Source of the DNA: Frigoribacterium sp. Leaf415
GTDB taxonomy: Bacteria > Actinomycetota > Actinomycetes > Actinomycetales > Microbacteriaceae
NCBI RefSeq assembly: GCF_001424645.1
Contig: NZ_LMQR01000001.1
Span: 1-64,000 of the forward strand
Direction: 5' to 3'
Length of the DNA stretch: 64,000 nucleotides
Part shown: positions 1 to 9,915 of the stretch, in pieces
How positions within the stretch are numbered: position 1 is the first letter of the stretch
Layout of the letters: the number at the start of each line of letters is the position of its first letter
Position numbers and translations under genes: made by a program
Notes under the pieces: model-generated
The model's input: the letters and a program-made list of their open reading frames with translations, nothing else
What the model was told of the DNA's origin: nothing
Databases searched by the model: none

Positions 1-151
1 GGCGTCGTCGACGAGGCCGACAAGCTGATCGGGCACCACCGTCCACATCAGCCCCGACGCCGCGTCGCTGCTGAACCAGACCTTCAAGACCGACGCCGTC
101 CAGGACGAGATGCTCGTCGGCGTCGCGAAGATCACCGCCGCCACGGAGTAG
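1..151 (+). CDS. C-terminal fragment of an unidentified protein, with an apparent frameshift
   Basis: Only the 3' end of this gene is in the window. The last 40 codons read in one frame as a plausible C-terminus (ending ...DEMLVGVAKITAATE, then TAG at 149-151). In that frame a stop lies at 26-28. The adjoining frame reads GVVDEADKLIG over the first 33 bases, so the natural reading switches by one base around positions 30-38. This suggests a one-base insertion, real or a sequencing error. The segment HISPDAASLLNQTF faintly recalls the C-terminal strand of secreted repeat proteins of the HtaA kind, but that is too weak to name it. It converges on the NADH dehydrogenase gene across two palindromes. 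Confidence 0.4.
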
Positions 152-211
152 TACCCGTCCGGTCGGCTACCGCCGGCTCGGCCCGCCCGGCCGGCTACCG
201 CCGCCACGGCC

Positions 212-233
212 TGATCCGGTACGTACCGGAACA
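212..233. repeat. Single copy of the GATCCGGTACGTACCGGATC palindrome family
   Basis: The palindrome core CCGGTACGTACCGG is intact and the right end is diverged (GGAACA instead of GGATCA). The same element occurs four times in a regular array at 6913-7024. Both sites lie between convergent genes. Confidence 0.8.
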
Positions 234-239
234 CCCCCG

Positions 240-297
240 AACCCCGTTTCGAACCATGCACCCGCTTTCTTCCGGGTTCATGGTTCGAAACGGGGTT
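240..297. terminator. Long hairpin between convergent genes (25-bp arms)
   Basis: Arms 240-264 and 273-297 are complementary with a single mismatch and enclose an 8-nt loop (ctttcttc). The core TCGAACCATG/CATGGTTCGA resembles the inverted repeat at 52247-52280. It lies between the end of the left-edge gene and the end of the NADH dehydrogenase gene, so a bidirectional terminator role is likely. There is no U-tract. Confidence 0.6.
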
Positions 298-381
298 GTT
301 CGGCGTATGGCAGGAGGGAGCGCGCAGGTCAGGAGGCGCGGTCCGGCGAGACCGCGACGACCCGACCCGGCGGCTCGGCCG

Positions 382-1680
382 CTACTCGACCTTCTCGGTC
401 TGCCACTTCTCGGGTGCGCGGTCACCGTTCGGGCGGACCGGCCGGACGTCGCCCACGATGGGGATCGCCCGCTTCCGCAGCGCCCAGAGGTAGCGGACGA
501 AGAAGTGCGTGAGGGTCGAGAGCCGGTTGCCGTTGCCGAGCAGGCTCGTGATGTGGACGAACACCCACAGCAGCCAGGCGACGGGGCCGGTCATCGTGAA
601 GCCGTTGGGCAGCTGCACCACGGCGGCGTTGGTGCCGACCGTGGCCATGGTGCCCTTGTCGTGGTACTTGAACGGCAGGAGCTTCTTGCCGGCGAGCAGG
701 CGGACGATCTGCTCGCCGATGTGTTCGCCGCCCTGGATCGCGGGCTGGGCGAGCTGCGCGAGAGCCTCGTCGGTCGCGGCGATGTCGCCCGCGGCGAAGA
801 TGCAGTCGAGTCCCTTGACCGTGAGGTCGTCGTTGACCTGGATGCGTCCGCCGTCGGTCTGCGGCACGCCCCACGACGCGACCTCGGCGTGCGCGGCGAC
901 GCCGGTGGCCCAGATGACGAGCTCGGCCGGGATGAACTCGCCGTCGGCGGCGACGACGCCGTCGGGTCGGACCTCTTCGACACCCGTGTCGAGCCGAAGG
1001 TCGACGCCGCGCTTGCGCAGCACCTTGGCGGCGTACTTGCGCAGACGGGGGGAGAAGGGCTTGAGCAACTCACCGCTGCGGTGAACGAGGGTGATCGTGA
1101 TGCTCGACGCGTCGATCTCGGGGTAGGCGTCCTTCAACGCCTGGTCGCGCAGTTCGGCCAGCGCGCCGGCCATCTCGACGCCCGTGGCGCCGCCGCCGAC
1201 GATGACGACTCGCACCTCGCCGCTGCCCACAGAGGCCGCCGCGTTCTCGAGCTGCGTGAACAGCTCGTCGCGGATGCGCAGCGCCTGCGAGCGGGAGTAC
1301 ATCGAGTAGGCGTACTCGTAGGCGCCCTTGGTGCCGAAGTAGCTGGTGTTGACGCCGTTGGCGAGGACCAGGGCGTCGTAGGCGATCTCCTCGCCGTCGC
1401 GCAGGGTGATGATGCGCTCGTCGGCCCGGATCGTGGTGAGCAACCCGTGACGGAACTCGGCGTTCGACTGCTTGGACCGCAGGCTGCGCAGGAAGTAGGT
1501 GACGTCGCCGGCGTTGAGGCCACCCGTGGCGACCTGGTACATGAGCGGCTGGAACATGTTGTAGACGTGGCGGTCGATGAGGGTGATGCGGACGTCGGCG
1601 TCTCGCAAGGACCTCATCGCCGCGATGCCGGCGAAGCCGCCGCCGACGATGACGACGTGGGGGCGGGGGTCTGCGGTCAT
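382..1680 (-). CDS. ndh: Type II NADH dehydrogenase (NDH-2)
   Basis: This 432-aa flavoprotein is expected to transfer electrons from NADH to menaquinone at the inner face of the membrane without pumping protons. An FAD-binding Rossmann motif sits at the N-terminus (VVIVGGGFAGIAA). A second dinucleotide fold for NADH lies mid-protein (VVIVGGGATGVEMAGALAEL), followed by the ATGV and AAGDIAA flavin-contact motifs. The hydrophobic C-terminal stretch (VAWLLWVFVHITSLLG) suits membrane attachment. I placed the start at the ATG beginning MTADPRPH, preceded by an AGGAG ribosome site. An upstream in-frame extension of about 55 residues is low-complexity and unlike the family. The gene is divergent from the MarR regulator. 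Confidence 0.93.
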   Translation of the reverse strand: MTADPRPHVVIVGGGFAGIAAMRSLRDADVRITLIDRHVYNMFQPLMYQVATGGLNAGDVTYFLRSLRSKQSNAEFRHGLLTTIRADERIITLRDGEEIAYDALVLANGVNTSYFGTKGAYEYAYSMYSRSQALRIRDELFTQLENAAASVGSGEVRVVIVGGGATGVEMAGALAELRDQALKDAYPEIDASSITITLVHRSGELLKPFSPRLRKYAAKVLRKRGVDLRLDTGVEEVRPDGVVAADGEFIPAELVIWATGVAAHAEVASWGVPQTDGGRIQVNDDLTVKGLDCIFAAGDIAATDEALAQLAQPAIQGGEHIGEQIVRLLAGKKLLPFKYHDKGTMATVGTNAAVVQLPNGFTMTGPVAWLLWVFVHITSLLGNGNRLSTLTHFFVRYLWALRKRAIPIVGDVRPVRPNGDRAPEKWQTEKVE

Positions 1681-1867
1681 GGGGGTTGCTCCTGCGGTGT
1701 CGATCGTGTCGTCGGATCGTCGTCGACCCCGGTTGGCCGGACCCGAGCGGCGAGTCCGCGGCGAGTTTACTCGCCTCGAGAGGCCGTCCGTACCTCCGAG
1801 ATCGATGCTCCTCGCCCCGGCTGGGGGTCTTGTCGGGACGCCCATCAGATGTTACGTTCATCGAACT

Positions 1868-1882
1868 ACTCGCTGATCGAGT
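1868..1882. promoter_or_regulatory. Palindrome in the ndh/marR divergent promoter
   Basis: ACTCG-CTGAT-CGAGT is a perfect 5-bp inverted repeat in the 280-bp divergent intergenic region. A MarR dimer commonly binds such a site next to its own gene. This is inferred from position and symmetry only. Confidence 0.35.
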
Positions 1883-1960
1883 TGCTTGTCGTCCAAGTGA
1901 CACGTGCCCCCGACGGCACGCCGACCCCGATCGCAGTGGCCCCGAACCCCCGGAGACCCC

Positions 1961-2449
1961 ATGACCCCCGCAACCCGGACGTCCACGTCCGCCGAACCCA
2001 CCCGCGACGCCCCCACCGAGCCGCAGTCCGGTGACGTCGCCGCCGTGCTCATCGCACTTCAGCACCTGCGGTCGCAGATCGCGTTCGTCAACGACCAGAT
2101 GGCCAAACGCATCGGCGTCGGCGCGACCGACTTCCTCGCCCTGGTGCACCTCTCGGTGCAGGGCGACACCGCGCCGAAGAAGGTCGGCGAGGCGCTGGGG
2201 CTCTCGTCGGGGGCGATGACGGCCCTCGCCGACCGCCTCGAGGCGGGCGGTCTCGTGACCAGGCTGCAGCACCCCACCGACCGTCGCAGCTTCGTCCTCG
2301 CCCTGACCGACGAGGGGGCGCGGGGCGTCAACGACGCCGGCGCCACCTACGGCCGGGCCGTGCAGGAGGCGCTGCCCGCGTCCCGCAGGCCCGTCGCCGA
2401 GGCGGTCTTCCGCGACCTGGGCGACGCGCTGCGGGCACTGGCCTGGTGA
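1961..2449 (+). CDS. MarR family transcriptional regulator
   Basis: This 162-aa winged-helix regulator has the recognition segment KKVGEALGLSSGAMTALADRLEAGGLV, followed by the wing HPTDRRSFVLALTDEG. The DRR and LT-xxG signatures are typical of the MarR family. The ATG at 1961 has GGAG nine bases upstream. The preceding in-frame ATG at 1904 would add a low-complexity leader. About 25 N-terminal residues (TSTSAEPT...) precede the dimerisation helices. The ligand and targets are unknown. The divergent ndh gene and the palindrome between them suggest autoregulation or redox control, but that is inference. Confidence 0.85.
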   Translation: MTPATRTSTSAEPTRDAPTEPQSGDVAAVLIALQHLRSQIAFVNDQMAKRIGVGATDFLALVHLSVQGDTAPKKVGEALGLSSGAMTALADRLEAGGLVTRLQHPTDRRSFVLALTDEGARGVNDAGATYGRAVQEALPASRRPVAEAVFRDLGDALRALAW

Positions 2450-2547
2450 CGGCGACCGCCACCGCGCCTCCTGGTCACGGGGTCGGGTGGGGGCGGAGGG
2501 TCCGACGGTCTCGGCCCTGCCGTGCGACGACCCGCTAGGGTCGGCTC

Positions 2548-2817
2548 GTGAGACTCTCGGTGACCTGGACGGCAGGCGACGCGCAGCACGGCATGCAGGT
2601 GCATGACGACCGCCTCGTCTACGTCCTTCGCGACACCGCCGGGCGGCCCACGACCCGCGAGATCCCGGCCGACTCGCTCTCCACCGTCGACTACTCGACC
2701 GTCGGCGACCGGCCCGTCATCACGCTGAACGAGCACGACGGCACGAGCACGTCGTTCCCGTGCCCCCGCAAGATCGCCCGGGTGCTCTACCCGGCGATCA
2801 AGTGGCTCACCGTCTGA
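2548..2817 (+). CDS. Small conserved hypothetical protein
   Basis: This 89-aa soluble protein has no signal peptide or membrane segment and no motif I can name. The sequence starts MRLSVTWTAGDAQHGMQVHDD and looks like an all-beta fold with charged loops. It starts with GTG. A TAGGGT -10-like box (2536-2541) lies exactly 6 nt before the GTG and there is no convincing Shine-Dalgarno site, so a leaderless mRNA is likely. Third-position GC is high through the frame, supporting a real gene. It ends 9 bp before the end of the convergent membrane-protein gene. Confidence 0.65.
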   Translation: MRLSVTWTAGDAQHGMQVHDDRLVYVLRDTAGRPTTREIPADSLSTVDYSTVGDRPVITLNEHDGTSTSFPCPRKIARVLYPAIKWLTV

Positions 2818-2826
2818 CGGTCGCCT

Positions 2827-3090
2827 CTACGAGGTGCGCTCGAGGTCGGTGACGTGGGAGCGTCGGCGGATCGCGACCTCGCGCCTCCGGGCTCTGACCG
2901 CCCCGCGGAAGCCGACCTCGGCGACGATCGCGCCCGCGATCATCAGCGAGAAGCCGGCGAGACCGGTGGGCAGGCCGAACATCGTCGGGGCGTTCCAGTC
3001 GAAGGTGAACGCCAGCACGGCCAGGCCGATCGCCACGAGGGCGAAACCGGCGACCGACAGGCAGACGCGGCGGGCTCTCGGTGCACTCAT
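2827..3090 (-). CDS. Small two-helix membrane protein
   Basis: The 87-residue protein has two hydrophobic segments (about residues 10-28 and 37-58) separated by the loop DWNAPTMFGLPTG. A basic C-terminal tail rich in Arg follows (RARRREVAIRRRS). Positively charged residues at both ends suggest that both termini are cytoplasmic. A TACGCT box lies 6 nt upstream of the ATG (3097-3102), again a leaderless arrangement. No function is recognised. Confidence 0.65.
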   Translation of the reverse strand: MSAPRARRVCLSVAGFALVAIGLAVLAFTFDWNAPTMFGLPTGLAGFSLMIAGAIVAEVGFRGAVRARRREVAIRRRSHVTDLERTS

Positions 3091-3205
3091 CCGGCCAGCG
3101 TAGGCAACACCTGCCGTCCGGCAACGGCGTTCTCAGGGGACGCGGATCGTTCTGCCGCGTAGCCCTCAGCCTGTCCCGCGGCTCGGCGGGTTCACAGGAA
3201 GCAGA

Positions 3206-3232
3206 ATTGCACTCTGGCGCTCAAAGTGCAAT
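3206..3232. promoter_or_regulatory. Probable TetR operator (ATTGCACT-N11-AGTGCAAT)
   Basis: Perfect 8-bp inverted repeats with an 11-bp spacer lie about 70 bp upstream of the TetR start. Size and position fit autorepression of the regulator-exporter operon. The regulated gene pair is inferred from synteny. Confidence 0.6.
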
Positions 3233-3303
3233 CATCGTCTTCGGCCACGAGGCCTCCGGCGACGTCGCCGATCACACGGAGCGACGAGACGAGGAGGCGC
3301 GCG

Positions 3304-5761
<2,458 letters not shown>

Positions 5762-5773
5762 CCGGTCCCGAGG

Positions 5774-5833
5774 ACACCGTCGAGTGGACGGGACACCGCG
5801 TTCTGCGACGGTGCCCTGTCCACTCGACGGTGT
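5774..5833. terminator. 25-bp-arm hairpin downstream of the exporter
   Basis: Arms 5774-5798 and 5809-5833 match with two mismatches around a 10-nt loop. The element sits between the exporter and the convergent 50-codon ORF. It has no U-tract. Confidence 0.6.
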
Positions 5834-5887
5834 TCTGCGTTCGGGCAGGGGCAGGAGCGGGCGCCGACGCGGGCGCGGGGCGCCGGG

Positions 5888-6040
5888 TCAGACGGCGGCG
5901 GGACCCTGGGCGGGCAGGGTCGCGGCCGCGGTCGAGGTGCGGGCGGGGGCGGACGCGAGTCGCGCCTCCTGGGCGGTGTCCCAGACGACGCCGTCGACGT
6001 CGTCCTCGCGCAGGCGCGTGGGGGTGTTGTGGGTGCTCAT
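5888..6040 (-). CDS. Small acidic/Ala-rich peptide of 50 aa
   Basis: The peptide begins MSTHNTPTRLREDDVDGVVW and ends in an Ala/Pro-rich tail. The ATG at 6040 is preceded by GAGGAGA at good spacing (start of a strong ribosome site). Downstream is the convergent exporter terminator. There is no cysteine, signal sequence or membrane segment. It resembles no family I know. The good ribosome site and coding-like third positions argue that it is translated, but conservation is needed to be sure. Confidence 0.45.
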   Translation of the reverse strand: MSTHNTPTRLREDDVDGVVWDTAQEARLASAPARTSTAAATLPAQGPAAV

Positions 6041-6215
6041 GGATGTCTCCTCGGGCGGGCCGTCGGGTCGGACGCGTCAGACGATGGTGCGGCACGGTGG
6101 GGTCGTGCCGCGGCCCCCAGTTCGTGGGCTGTCGATCGATCACCGTAGCCGATCGGCACGAGGTGTCGCGACCGGCGATCGAGGACCGGCACCGCGCCTC
6201 CTCGTGGCCGTTCCC

Positions 6216-6255
6216 TAGGATCGTGCGCATGAGTGCGCGAGGCGGAGTCCGGTGA
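6216..6255 (+). promoter_or_regulatory. Leaderless 8-codon mini-ORF coupled to the GNAT gene
   Basis: A TAGGAT -10 box (6216-6221) is 7 nt before ATG 6229. That ATG opens an ORF of eight codons (MSARGGVR), and its TGA overlaps the GTG start of the acetyltransferase as GTGA (6252-6255). The arrangement suggests translation begins on a leaderless end and re-initiates at the GTG. A GGCGGAG sequence inside the mini-ORF could act as the ribosome site. Confidence 0.45.
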
Positions 6256-6821
6256 TCCACGACGTGCGGCTGGCCGGTGACGGCGTGCGGCTCGACCCGC
6301 TCGGGGTCGCCGACGCGGCCGCTCTCTGGCCGCTGACCGACGACGCGCTGTGGGCGGGCATGGTGACGCCGCGTCCGGCGAGCGTCGAGGCGTACGCCGA
6401 GCACGTGGAGGCGCAGGTCGCGAACCCGACGACCCTCGCGTTCACGGTGCGTGGCGCGGACGACGGCGAGGTGCGGGGCACGACGACGCTGTACGACCTC
6501 GTCCCGGCGCAGGGGCGGGTCGAGATCGGCAGCACCTGGTACGCCCGTGCGTTCTGGGGCGGACGGACGAACCCGGCGACGAAGCTGCTGCTGCTCGGGC
6601 ACGCGTTCGACACCCTCGGGCTGAACCGGGTCGCGCTGCGCTGCGACGCCCGCAACCTGCGGAGCGCTGCGGCGATCCGCCGGTTGGGCGCCGTGCCCGA
6701 GGGGGTGCTCCGGTCGCACCGGGTCGCCGCCGACGGCACCGTGGGCGACACGGCCTACTTCTCGATCGTGCGTGGCGAATGGCCCGACGTGCGGGCCGGT
6801 CTGGAGGCGCGGCTCGCCTGA
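6252..6821 (+). CDS. GNAT family N-acetyltransferase (RimJ/RimL-like)
   Basis: The 189-aa enzyme would transfer an acetyl group from acetyl-CoA to an amine, perhaps a protein N-terminus or small molecule. The RimJ/RimL-type core is visible: VRLDPLGVADAAALWPL at the start, the beta-strand GRVEIGSTWYARAFWGGRTNPATKLLLLGHAF (a variant acetyl-CoA loop), and LNRVALRCDARNLRSAAAIRRLGAVPEGVLRSH. The last two elements are the hallmark of this subfamily. The start is GTG, coupled to the mini-ORF described above. It converges on a membrane-protein gene across the palindrome array. Confidence 0.82.
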   Translation: MIHDVRLAGDGVRLDPLGVADAAALWPLTDDALWAGMVTPRPASVEAYAEHVEAQVANPTTLAFTVRGADDGEVRGTTTLYDLVPAQGRVEIGSTWYARAFWGGRTNPATKLLLLGHAFDTLGLNRVALRCDARNLRSAAAIRRLGAVPEGVLRSHRVAADGTVGDTAYFSIVRGEWPDVRAGLEARLA

Positions 6822-6912
6822 GCGGGTGGGTCGCGTGCCCGTGCTCGTGCCTGTGTTCGTGCCCGCGTCGTGCCTGTGCTCGCGCTCGCCCGCGGGGCTT
6901 CCTCTCTTCTTC

Positions 6913-7024
6913 TGATCCGGTACGTACCGGATCAAGGCAGGGTGATCCGATACGTACCGGATGAGGGACCGATGATCCGGTACGTACCGGATCAGGCCGG
7001 GGTGATCCGGTACGTACCGGATCA
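6913..7024. repeat. Array of four 22-bp palindromes at exact 30-bp period
   Basis: Copies begin at 6913, 6943, 6973 and 7003. Copies 1, 3 and 4 contain the perfect palindrome GATCCGGTACGTACCGGATC flanked by T and A. Copy 2 has two changes (GATCCGATACGTACCGGATG). The 8-bp spacers differ (aggcaggg, gggaccga, ggccgggg). A fifth, single copy lies at 212-233. The 30-bp period is just under three helical turns, so all copies face nearly the same side of the DNA. Confidence 0.95.
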
Positions 7025-7060
7025 AGCGCAGGGTGAACGACTGTCCGCGACGGTGACTGT

Positions 7061-7107
7061 GACGGCCACGGCCACGGCCACGGCGATGGCGATGGCGATG
7101 GCGACGG
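7061..7107. repeat. Hexanucleotide tandem repeats (GGCCAC)n and (GGCGAT)n
   Basis: Three ACGGCC-type units run into three GGCGAT units. Such runs are prone to slippage. They lie in non-coding sequence after the palindrome array. Confidence 0.8.
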
Positions 7108-7156
7108 TTACCGGGAGTGCGGCCGCTTCGTACGCGGCGCGTGTCCGTCGGGGACG

Positions 7157-7753
7157 TCAGTCGCGGATGGCCGGGGAGGCGACTCGGAGCGCCTCGAAGA
7201 GCTCGTCGGCGACGAGGTGCGCCTCGTTCGACATCAGCGTGATCGGGGCGCCGCCGTCGACGTCGACCATCACCCAGCGGCCGCCGCGGCGGCGCCGGCG
7301 TTCGTCGACCGGGGTGACACGGACGTCGTGCAGGGCGGTGGCGGGCCACTCCTCGCCCGTCACCCCACGGAGGCGCGAGATCGGGTCGGGCAGGTAGCGC
7401 AACCGCGTCGTCGACAGGGCGAAGCGACCGGGGTAGGCCGCGCCTCCTGTCGGCAGGACCCGGTCGGCGAAGGTGCCCCAGAGGAGGCGCTCGTCCGGCC
7501 CGACCGGGAGTCGTCGCCAGGACGTGATCGCGAAGACGCGCCGGACCTGGCGGACCAGGGCGACGACGTACACGATGATGAGGGCCACCATGACGTACCA
7601 GAGGCCGTCGGGGCCATCGGTCGTAAATTGCCAGGACGACTGGGCGACGAAGAGCACGGTCAGCAGCGCGCCCCAGCCGAGCGTCCACCACTGACCGCCC
7701 CGCAGCTTCTGCTCCGAGCGGCTCCGGGGTGGGTCGGGAACGGCCTTGTCCAT
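7157..7753 (-). CDS. Membrane-anchored hypothetical protein
   Basis: This 198-aa protein has two adjacent transmembrane helices near the N-terminus (WWTLGWGALLTVLFVAQSSW and LWYVMVALIIVYVVALV). A cytoplasmic domain of about 120 residues follows, reading like a PH-type beta-barrel (GRFALSTTRLRYL, WVMVDVDGGAPITLMSNEAHLVADELFEAL). The ATG at 7753 opens MDKAVPDPPRSRSEQ. Longer upstream reading is not convincing. The divergent neighbour at 7830 has a similar architecture (two helices plus a beta-rich tail), so they may be distant relatives acting together. The function is not recognised. Confidence 0.7.
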   Translation of the reverse strand: MDKAVPDPPRSRSEQKLRGGQWWTLGWGALLTVLFVAQSSWQFTTDGPDGLWYVMVALIIVYVVALVRQVRRVFAITSWRRLPVGPDERLLWGTFADRVLPTGGAAYPGRFALSTTRLRYLPDPISRLRGVTGEEWPATALHDVRVTPVDERRRRRGGRWVMVDVDGGAPITLMSNEAHLVADELFEALRVASPAIRD

Positions 7754-7829
7754 GAGGGATTGTCTACACCAGGGGGTGTGGTGGGCCCACCTCGGGGCCT
7801 CCGGAGCCGCCGGCCGGTACCGTGACCGC

Positions 7830-8432
7830 ATGCCCGACGAGACCTGGGTCGTGTTCGACGACGAGCCGAAGCAGCGCGTGCTGGTGCGGGCGATGCGGGT
7901 GTTCCTGCCGGCGATCGTGATCCTCGGGACGGCCGGTGCCTTCTTCTCTCGAGGCGGCGAGTCGCTGGTCGATCTGTTCGGCCCGATCGCCGTGCCGATC
8001 TCGTTCGTGTTCTGGGCGACCGCCGCCGCGGTCGGGTGGAACGTCGTGCTGTGGCTCAACGCCCCCTTCGCGATCGACCTCGAGGGTCGTCGACTGCGCA
8101 TCCGCCATCGCGTGGTGCCGTTCGACCAGGTCGAGCGGGCCGAGCTCGTGGGACTCAGCGACGGCGACCGGGCCGGCCTCCTGCTCAAGATCGGCCGTCG
8201 TCGGGGGCCCACGGCGTCCGTGCTGCTGCGGGAGCGCTCGACGCCCGTGCTCGACGACGCCCGACGCGACCTGCTGATCGAGGTGATCCGCGCCTCCTCG
8301 ATCGCCCGCCCGGTCAGCCCCCACGACCCGACGGGGACCTTCGGGCGGTTCAACTTCCCGGGGATGCTGGACAAGGACGGGGCCGAGCTGGTCGTCCGCG
8401 ACCCGCCGGCGCCGGGCGAGTCCGCGCCGTGA
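7830..8432 (+). CDS. Membrane-anchored hypothetical protein with PH-like tail
   Basis: The 200-aa product carries two transmembrane helices (FLPAIVILGTAGAFF at about residues 24-38 and VPISFVFWATAAAVGWNVVLWL at about 53-74). A soluble domain follows with the pattern FAIDLEGRRLRIRHRVVPFDQVERAELVG, as in bacterial PH/DUF membrane proteins. A TACCGT box lies 6 nt upstream of the ATG (7818-7823), so the transcript is probably leaderless. It is divergent from 7157-7753 with a 76-bp gap. No catalytic motif is visible. Confidence 0.7.
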   Translation: MPDETWVVFDDEPKQRVLVRAMRVFLPAIVILGTAGAFFSRGGESLVDLFGPIAVPISFVFWATAAAVGWNVVLWLNAPFAIDLEGRRLRIRHRVVPFDQVERAELVGLSDGDRAGLLLKIGRRRGPTASVLLRERSTPVLDDARRDLLIEVIRASSIARPVSPHDPTGTFGRFNFPGMLDKDGAELVVRDPPAPGESAP

Positions 8433-8499
8433 CGGGCCGCCGTCCTGACGTACCGCCGCCCTGACGCACGTCCTCACGAGCCACCCCGCGACGACCTAC

Positions 8500-8559
8500 C
8501 CGCCACGAAGTGAACAGCCCGCCACGAGATGTCGTGGCGGGCTGTTCACTTCGTGGCGG
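8500..8559. terminator. Perfect 28-bp-stem hairpin with a 4-nt loop
   Basis: Arms 8500-8527 and 8532-8559 are exact reverse complements (start CCGCCACGAAGTGAACAG) with loop GATG. The hairpin lies between convergent genes ending at 8432 and 8584. A stem this long and perfect is rare for a simple terminator and may instead be a young repeat element. Confidence 0.7.
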
Positions 8560-8583
8560 CGTGACCGGTCGGTCGGGCTCGGC

Positions 8584-9915
8584 TCAGCGGCGACGCAGGC
8601 GCAGACGTCCGGCGACGAGGGCCCCGGCACCGGCGAGGACCGCACCGAGGGCCCAGGTCAGCGCACCCGACGGCTCCGACCCGGTGTAGGCGAGCGACGT
8701 CGCGCGGGTCGGCGTCACGGCGGCGACGCGACGCACCGGCAGTGCGGCCGGGGCGACGGTGCTCGGCGTCGTGGTGACGGGGACGGTCGCGGCGGAGGCG
8801 ACCGAGAACACCACGGCGGCCGAGAAATCGCTCTCCGTCGTCAGGTCGGCGTCGAAGGTGTAGGCGTCCGTCGCGAAGTCGCCGACGGGCAGGACGAAGC
8901 GGGCCGCGAAGCGTCCGTCGGCGTCCACGGGCACCACGGCCGTCGCGGAGCCCGAGACCTCGTACGGGACGGGGTCGACGTCCACCGGGATCTCGAAGGC
9001 GATCTCGTCGCCGGTGGGCTCGGCGTCGGACGCCGGGTCGGGCTCAGCCGACGGGTCGGCGTCCGACGGCGCGTCTGTCGACGGATCGGGCAGGTCGGTG
9101 ACCAGCTCGTCGGCGTCGTAGACCTCGACGAGGGCATAGCCGCCGGGTACGCCGTTCTGGCCGTTCACCGTGACGACACCGGCCGTCGCGCCGACCGGTG
9201 CGGTGAGCGCCGGGGCGGGGACGGAGGTCGTCACCGGCACGTCGGACGAGGACGAGAGGCCGCTGCCGTCCGTGACCGTGACCGTGACGAAGCCCCCGAC
9301 GGCGAAGGTCGCGGGCAGCTCCACGAAGAACACGGTCGAGCCGTCCTCGTCGAAAACGGGGGAGTCGTCGAAGGTGACGTAGTCGGCATCGGCGGGCACG
9401 CCTTCGCCCGACACCGTGACGCCGACGACATCACCGGGCGTGAAGCCCTGGGCGAAGACGGGGAAGGCCTGGCCCGGGTGGGCTGCGTTGACGGGGATGA
9501 ACACGAAGAGGTCGTCGACCACCATGTCGGTCGCCACTTCTGTCGGGGCGACCTCGCGGGTCGGAGCAGAGGTCTCGACCGGGGCGTCGACCTCGGGAGC
9601 GGCTGCGTCGGACGCGTCCTCCGACGATCCTGTCGCGTCGGGGACGTCGGTCGGGAGTGTTGCCGGGGCGACGGCCTGGGCGCCGGGTCCGGCTGGCTCG
9701 GCCGCTGCCGGTGAGGCATCGCCCGGGACGGCGACGGCGGAGACGCTCGTCGAGTCGCCCGTCGTCGTGGTGCCGGTCGTGGCGTCGGTCGTGGCCTCGG
9801 CGGCCACGGGGTCGCCGTCGGCGGCGAAGGCCGTGGCGGGCGTGAGGACGAGGGCCGCGGCGAGGACGACGGCGGGCAGGGCGGTGGCGGCGCCGAGGCG
9901 GCGTGATCTGGACAT
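8584..9915 (-). CDS. Secreted cell-wall-anchored protein with LAYTG sorting signal
   Basis: This 443-aa protein begins with a Sec signal peptide (AVVLAAALVLTPATAFA, cleavage after about residue 31). A low-complexity Ala/Thr/Ser/Asp region rich in V-P-A follows, then beta-sandwich-like repeats (AHPGQAFPVFAQGFTPGDVVGVTVSGEGVP and a similar stretch later). Near the C-terminus LAYTGSEPSG precedes a hydrophobic helix and the tail RLRLRRR. LAxTG is the motif cut by class E sortases of high-GC actinobacteria. The ATG at 9915 has GGGGGAA upstream. Adhesion or surface-layer roles are possible but not shown. Confidence 0.78.
   Translation of the reverse strand: MSRSRRLGAATALPAVVLAAALVLTPATAFAADGDPVAAEATTDATTGTTTTGDSTSVSAVAVPGDASPAAAEPAGPGAQAVAPATLPTDVPDATGSSEDASDAAAPEVDAPVETSAPTREVAPTEVATDMVVDDLFVFIPVNAAHPGQAFPVFAQGFTPGDVVGVTVSGEGVPADADYVTFDDSPVFDEDGSTVFFVELPATFAVGGFVTVTVTDGSGLSSSSDVPVTTSVPAPALTAPVGATAGVVTVNGQNGVPGGYALVEVYDADELVTDLPDPSTDAPSDADPSAEPDPASDAEPTGDEIAFEIPVDVDPVPYEVSGSATAVVPVDADGRFAARFVLPVGDFATDAYTFDADLTTESDFSAAVVFSVASAATVPVTTTPSTVAPAALPVRRVAAVTPTRATSLAYTGSEPSGALTWALGAVLAGAGALVAGRLRLRRR

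Follow-up and report, generated by a model that had tools for sequence, protein, structure and literature searches.

REP/REPIN sequences are short dispersed palindromes that tend to lie on 3′ sides and in convergent gaps, sometimes in genes, and in clusters (PMC3733652). The palindrome of Frigoribacterium described here is alike in these respects and differs in being a symmetric unit without a GTAG tag, in its low copy number, and in having two arms whose differences between clades match each other at a shared locus. GTAG was found within 6 bases on either side at 0 of 143 sites; CGTC or GACG stood beside the palindrome 10 times among the same sites, and CGTC is contained in one of its two types (type B, below) on both strands. 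The RAYT-type family Y1_Tnp (PF01797) had no match in any of the 16 genus genomes, and 5 of 14 control genomes matched; a RAYT-mobilised REP was rejected on this ground.

Rickettsia palindromic elements (RPE) are comparable as palindromes in protein-coding genes that are read in frame. Their length is about 150 bp (PMC10969869). The Frigoribacterium unit, in contrast, measures 22 bp and also forms arrays. The RefZ motifs of Bacillus, which SlmA and Noc sites resemble in type, offer another comparison. These motifs are near-palindromic, scattered rather than placed at promoters, and protein-bound, as the Frigoribacterium sites putatively are, and their position with respect to oriC is conserved throughout a genus (PMC6657595). 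RefZ has five motifs, whereas the Frigoribacterium sites number 0–29 copies per genome, form tandem arrays, and show a weak origin-proximal trend. Among the titles and abstract openings listed by literature searches, none was an account of this 22-bp repeat. In our favored explanation, to which we assign a probability of slightly above one half, the sites are kept for a putative homodimeric DNA-binding protein, and the array studied here would be a local expansion of a 22-bp dyad-symmetric family of Frigoribacterium.

The array and its dispersed family

The window, a stretch of 64,000 nucleotides from Frigoribacterium sp. Leaf415 (genome G000; G-numbers denote genus genomes and L-numbers loci), contains four near-identical 22-bp palindromes at start-to-start steps of exactly 30 bp and a fifth copy (Table 1). 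This description by the sequence-only reading was confirmed, as was its statement that 8-bp spacers and symmetric repeats exclude a CRISPR by form. Copies 1, 3, and 4 are identical in sequence, and the spacers (aggcaggg, gggaccga, and ggccgggg) are mostly dissimilar to one another. The window gave five matches with at most three mismatches, against 0 in 100 dinucleotide shuffles. Our reading of the sequence and open reading frames agreed that both places lie in convergent gaps. Our own gene caller returned the same setting for the array, with gene ends at 6821 and 7157; the left neighbor of the single copy rests on sequence reading because the caller miscalled bases 1–234. Counterparts of the single copy occur at the aligned place in G010 (L095) and in a contig of Frigoribacterium sp. 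PhB24 (L061).

Table 1. Positions of the palindromes and neighboring features in the window
Feature	Position	Strand	Remarks
Palindrome copy 1	6913..6934	.	TGATCCGGTACGTACCGGATCA, perfect
Palindrome copy 2	6943..6964	.	two mismatches
Palindrome copy 3	6973..6994	.	perfect
Palindrome copy 4	7003..7024	.	perfect
Fifth, single palindrome copy	212..233	.	one mismatch; adjoins hairpin with 25-bp arms (240–297)
Stretch of about 290 bp: array and simple-sequence flanks	6843..7132	.	missing from the same gap in G008
Left convergent neighbor of array, GNAT acetyltransferase gene	6252..6821	+	PF13302
Right convergent neighbor of array	7157..7753	-	no Pfam family; start 7753 from our own reading of the sequence

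A search of the genome for further copies had been proposed as a check, and 22 copies were found at three or fewer mismatches to the 22-mer (reversed control, 0); holding the outer arms constant and leaving the center free gave 19. The pattern GATCCGGN6CCGGATC was present in 11 of 60 genomes, G000 included. Seven of these belong to the genus, and the remaining four have one or two copies each, with unrelated centers. Among 150 family genomes (including G000, G004, and G007 of the genus), the wider pattern matched three genomes beyond G000 and G007, once each and with other centers. In the 16 genus genomes, the wider pattern gave 0 palindromes in five, G002–G006. When a collection of 84,980 species, which possibly does not include records of the window's own genome, was searched for the exact 20-mer, 25 stretches matched; every one was titled Frigoribacterium. 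Within the collections searched, the palindrome family was confined to Frigoribacterium. A plasmid or viral origin of the array was rejected, there being only three weak matches to Sinorhizobium plasmids (E about 0.5) and none of the exact 20-mer in viral contigs.

Copy number per genome varied from 0 to 29, with three, one, and two copies in G008, G013, and G015, respectively, and 29 in G010. Strict sites, defined by fixed outer arms and eight free central bases, sum to 126 over the genus genomes; the collected loci, minus eight non-genus loci, yielded 143 unique sites, 124 of them strict, with a pair of identical array copies in G007 counted once. A weak GC preference was seen immediately outside the 22-bp conserved unit. 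The possibility that the palindrome is part of a composite element, accompanied by another fixed motif, was rejected, as k-mer comparison of 145 flanks revealed weak enrichment only (e.g., TCTCT, 10/145 vs 0/142).

The window array was missing in the same gap of G008, G009, G014, and G015; in G013 and G010, other sequence follows the array's left gene, with no array beside it. The closest approach to either palindrome type in these six loci was 8 mismatches. G000 has about 290 bp extra in this gap, simple repeats included, bounded by an imperfect 16-bp direct repeat (6827–6842 and 7133–7148; 12 of 16 bases alike by eye). The window array is recent or easily lost, and orthologous loci differ in array size. 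Arrays with 30-bp steps also occur in G010 and G014; the steps between other neighboring copies are 31, 33, 35, 48, 50, 51, 52, 53, 54, 56, and 60 bp or more, and 30 bp is no family-wide rule for spacing.

The earlier suggestion that the strict period reflects a constraint is not supported, because periods differ between loci and the array is missing in relatives. Conservation of the period in relatives, which had been named as a test, was found in part, in the arrays of G010 and G014 and not at the other steps. Of phased protein binding, the binding half gains support from the paired arm difference between clades and from one site that formed in place. Drifted spacers alongside intact palindromes and an intact period were seen in the array of the window and in a portion of that of G012; in arrays L196, L050, L054, and L198, the spacers are identical or near-identical, and such arrays look young. 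These near-identical spacers uphold one part of a further suggestion, duplication of a REP-like unit; the part that fell is REP membership, given the lack of PF01797 in 16 of 16 genomes. Two arrays have features of their own: L198:3303-3474 (G010) comprises six copies at 30-bp steps, all of mixed type, upstream of an ArsR-family gene, and in L063:3325-3360 a run of N, probably an assembly gap, starts inside the third 30-bp repeat.

Placement between and within genes

Placement was assessed with our own simple gene caller against site-free gaps of at least 60 bp. Convergent gaps accounted for 33 of 62 intergenic loci with both neighbors called, compared with 24 of 170 site-free gaps (Fisher p = 9e-9), whereas divergent gaps accounted for 3 of 62 and 55 of 170, respectively (Fisher p = 5e-6); orthologous loci are not independent in these statistics, and the tests were computed with 63 because one locus has both a convergent and a divergent site and counts twice. 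The convergent share is lowered by some FliK and array loci of the B genomes that the caller probably took for gaps in error. With only 3 of 62 site loci in divergent gaps, a promoter operator was rejected as a general rule. Clustering near the origin, with dnaA as the landmark, was weak (p = 0.002–0.025 by treatment in G000; p = 0.10–0.11 in G007) and is suggestive in G000 only.

The preference for convergent gaps recalls the extragenic and downstream placement of REP, yet 40 of the 143 sites, at 27 loci, were called coding by our gene caller. As in RPE, coding copies were read in frame: 37 of the 40 coding sites share one frame, mostly encoding DPxRxGS, and the three others are L193 (GNAT), L194 (the end of a protein without a Pfam family), and L001 (a miscall at a contig start). 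In ten host genes checked, the linker or tail positions were mostly low-complexity by eye, L185 being less clear. The one-frame preference is explained by linker tolerance as well as by binding. A partner gene beside the sites was also rejected: the neighbors and hosts were varied by Pfam (MFS, FliK, GAPDH domains, ROK, beta-lactamase family, GNAT, and ArsR type), and no candidate for a binding protein stood out among the genes neighboring or hosting sites.

Two palindrome types at shared loci

Type A (TGATCCGGTACGTACCGGATCA) occurs in 7 of 16 genus genomes and type B (TGATCCGTCACGTGACGGATCA) in 4 of 16, and both arms of type B differ from type A in a matching way. With loci assigned to clades by hand from their handles, one odd site (L163) dropped, and two identical array copies collapsed, the 82 strict sites of the A clade comprised 56 GT/GT, 7 mixed GT/TC, 1 TC/TC, and 18 other sites, and the 41 of the B clade comprised 33 TC/TC, 1 mixed, 7 other, and 0 GT/GT sites. 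Six of the seven mixed A-clade sites form one array of G010, the A-clade genome that also has one pure B site. The two outer free pairs were complementary in 204 of 248 cells; 2000 shuffles, which do not keep relatedness, averaged 126 and never exceeded 153. Of the 124 strict sites, 106 have a CG center, and 53 have a noncomplementary pair immediately flanking the center. A tree of the MFS gene from 15 of the 16 genomes (midpoint root; G005 left out, with no match at the limit set) supported clade A with 100/99, clade B with 94/94, and A plus B against the rest with 98/97.

Several loci carry sites in both clades. In the MFS gene, a palindrome follows the same LVPxP codons as type A in G000, G008, G009, G010, and G014 and as type B in G001 and G007. 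The site is altered in G013, G015, and G012 and missing in G011, which makes it ill suited to an essential role; it is also missing in G002, G003, G004, and G006. At the FliK locus, identified by Pfam in L020 only and elsewhere by tblastn, four A genomes have 12 sites (7 type A, 5 related, and 0 type B) and four B genomes have 14 sites, all type B. Two more gaps with sites in both clades, a peptide-transporter operon and a helicase/ligase gap (both named by eye), present a blurred A/B contrast because G010 has a type B site or mixed sites there. A single codon position of a single gene that holds type A or type B depending on the clade amounts to a natural experiment. In nine of nine chosen ortholog groups (ungapped), the palindrome was more conserved than its flanks, differing by 0–16% against 9–50% for the adjacent 11 + 11 bases, a conservation biased upward because the groups were chosen for members sharing the site.

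In all seven A-clade genomes, the TGA of a palindrome is the stop codon of a small gene (L032, L036, L060, L105, L059, L026, and L069); these loci seem to be one gap, judging by the neighboring gene in L036, L060, L069, and L105 and by aligned flanks in L032, L059, and L026. In three B-clade genomes, a palindrome lies inside one gene (L129, L189, and L136), assigned to ROK by Pfam in L129 and L189 and by eye in L136.

A site of a different kind was found in G001 (L193), where the residues LIRHVTDH, part of the main helix of a GNAT protein, are encoded by an exact type B palindrome read in a frame differing from that of the linker sites. Solved GNAT relatives align across the site without gaps; of 126 homologues found, 119 of the 120 listed cover the segment, and a gap over those residues occurs in 0 of 119. 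The same eight residues were present in none of the homologues listed. Since no residue is inserted relative to the homologues, the site arose by substitutions in place. Judged from these alignments, insertion cannot explain the GNAT copy and substitutions can, a conclusion that applies to one site only.

Weighing the explanations

Homodimer sites are favored because the symmetry is kept through the arm change, the center is free apart from CG, mixed sites are tolerated, and one site was made in place. A putative sequence-specific homodimer would read the sites as double-stranded DNA, mostly away from promoters. Arrays would arise by local tandem duplication, after which the palindromes would be kept and the spacers would drift, and a change in the specificity of the protein between two sister clades would have changed the sites genome-wide on both arms. 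From these patterns we infer that the protein exists and binds as a dimer, in which direction and sequence the change ran, and that selection lies behind the conservation. Unstable copy number, mixed sites, the pure B site in G010, and array turnover count against binding sites. If such a protein exists, the A/B pair would show a specificity change carried through a whole genome. Its task might, as a guess, be chromosome organisation or division control; the full proposal of a genus-own protein for either task, whose specificity switched between the sister clades while its sites were rewritten on both arms genome-wide, even inside protein-coding genes, we consider unlikely.

The main rival of the binding-site reading is a selfish or mobile palindromic mini-repeat akin to REP, RPE, and other small dispersed repeats, copies of which would be spread by a putative enzyme and tolerated where harm is small, with A and B as the active sequences of two lineages. 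The range of copy numbers, the absence of the window array from four relatives with about 290 bp extra in G000, and the location in convergent gaps and, in genes, mostly in one frame in linkers or tails speak for such a repeat, which accounts for the turnover and the harmless placement no less well than binding sites do. Reported REPs lie between genes in unidirectional or convergent orientation and at times within genes, and those of the CGTC type are described as having no dedicated transposase (PMC3733652). Against this, PF01797, the transposase family searched, is missing from the genus, the site in the conserved GNAT helix came without an insertion, and neither the window locus nor the MFS gene, the two places compared, offered a clean empty site at which the target was exactly duplicated. 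Where the clades share a position but differ in type, either separate insertions would have had to hit one codon or old copies would have had to be converted. Divergence is below that of the flanks in the chosen ortholog groups. On balance, we regard the selfish repeat as a possible but somewhat doubtful explanation; if correct, it would be a very small one, residing in coding linkers and having no REP-type transposase that could be recognised.

An RNA hairpin at transcript ends, serving as a terminator or as a processing or stability element, would also account for the preference for convergent gaps and for the several loci at which the palindrome TGA is the neighboring gene's stop codon. The RNA of the four-copy array folds far better than shuffles (z = -8.5), but it does so via copy-to-copy pairing. 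Such a role seems improbable with more than a quarter of the sites (40/143) called inside reading frames, no U-tract after the window copies, no Rfam family in window positions 1–9000, and a predominant CG center (106/124 strict sites) that a loop does not need. Template switching can restore symmetry in quasi-palindromes. Functionless duplications, tandem and dispersed, that arose neutrally and regained symmetry by this process would suit the identical or near-identical spacers of L196, L050, L054, and L198 and the variation in array size between orthologous loci, but they leave the same new arms of copies dispersed genome-wide unexplained, and we consider this origin highly improbable.

Other repeats and hairpins accompany the palindromes in the window. 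The hairpin next to the single copy has its 25-bp arms around TTCGAA, and DNA like it was observed near palindromes in at least 11 other loci. Inter-gene hairpins with 28-bp arms and other sequences lie at 8500–8559 and 5771–5836 (100% and 89% complementary, respectively). The simple-sequence stretches flanking the array (6833–6890 and 7037–7108) match low-complexity DNA elsewhere in many genus genomes.
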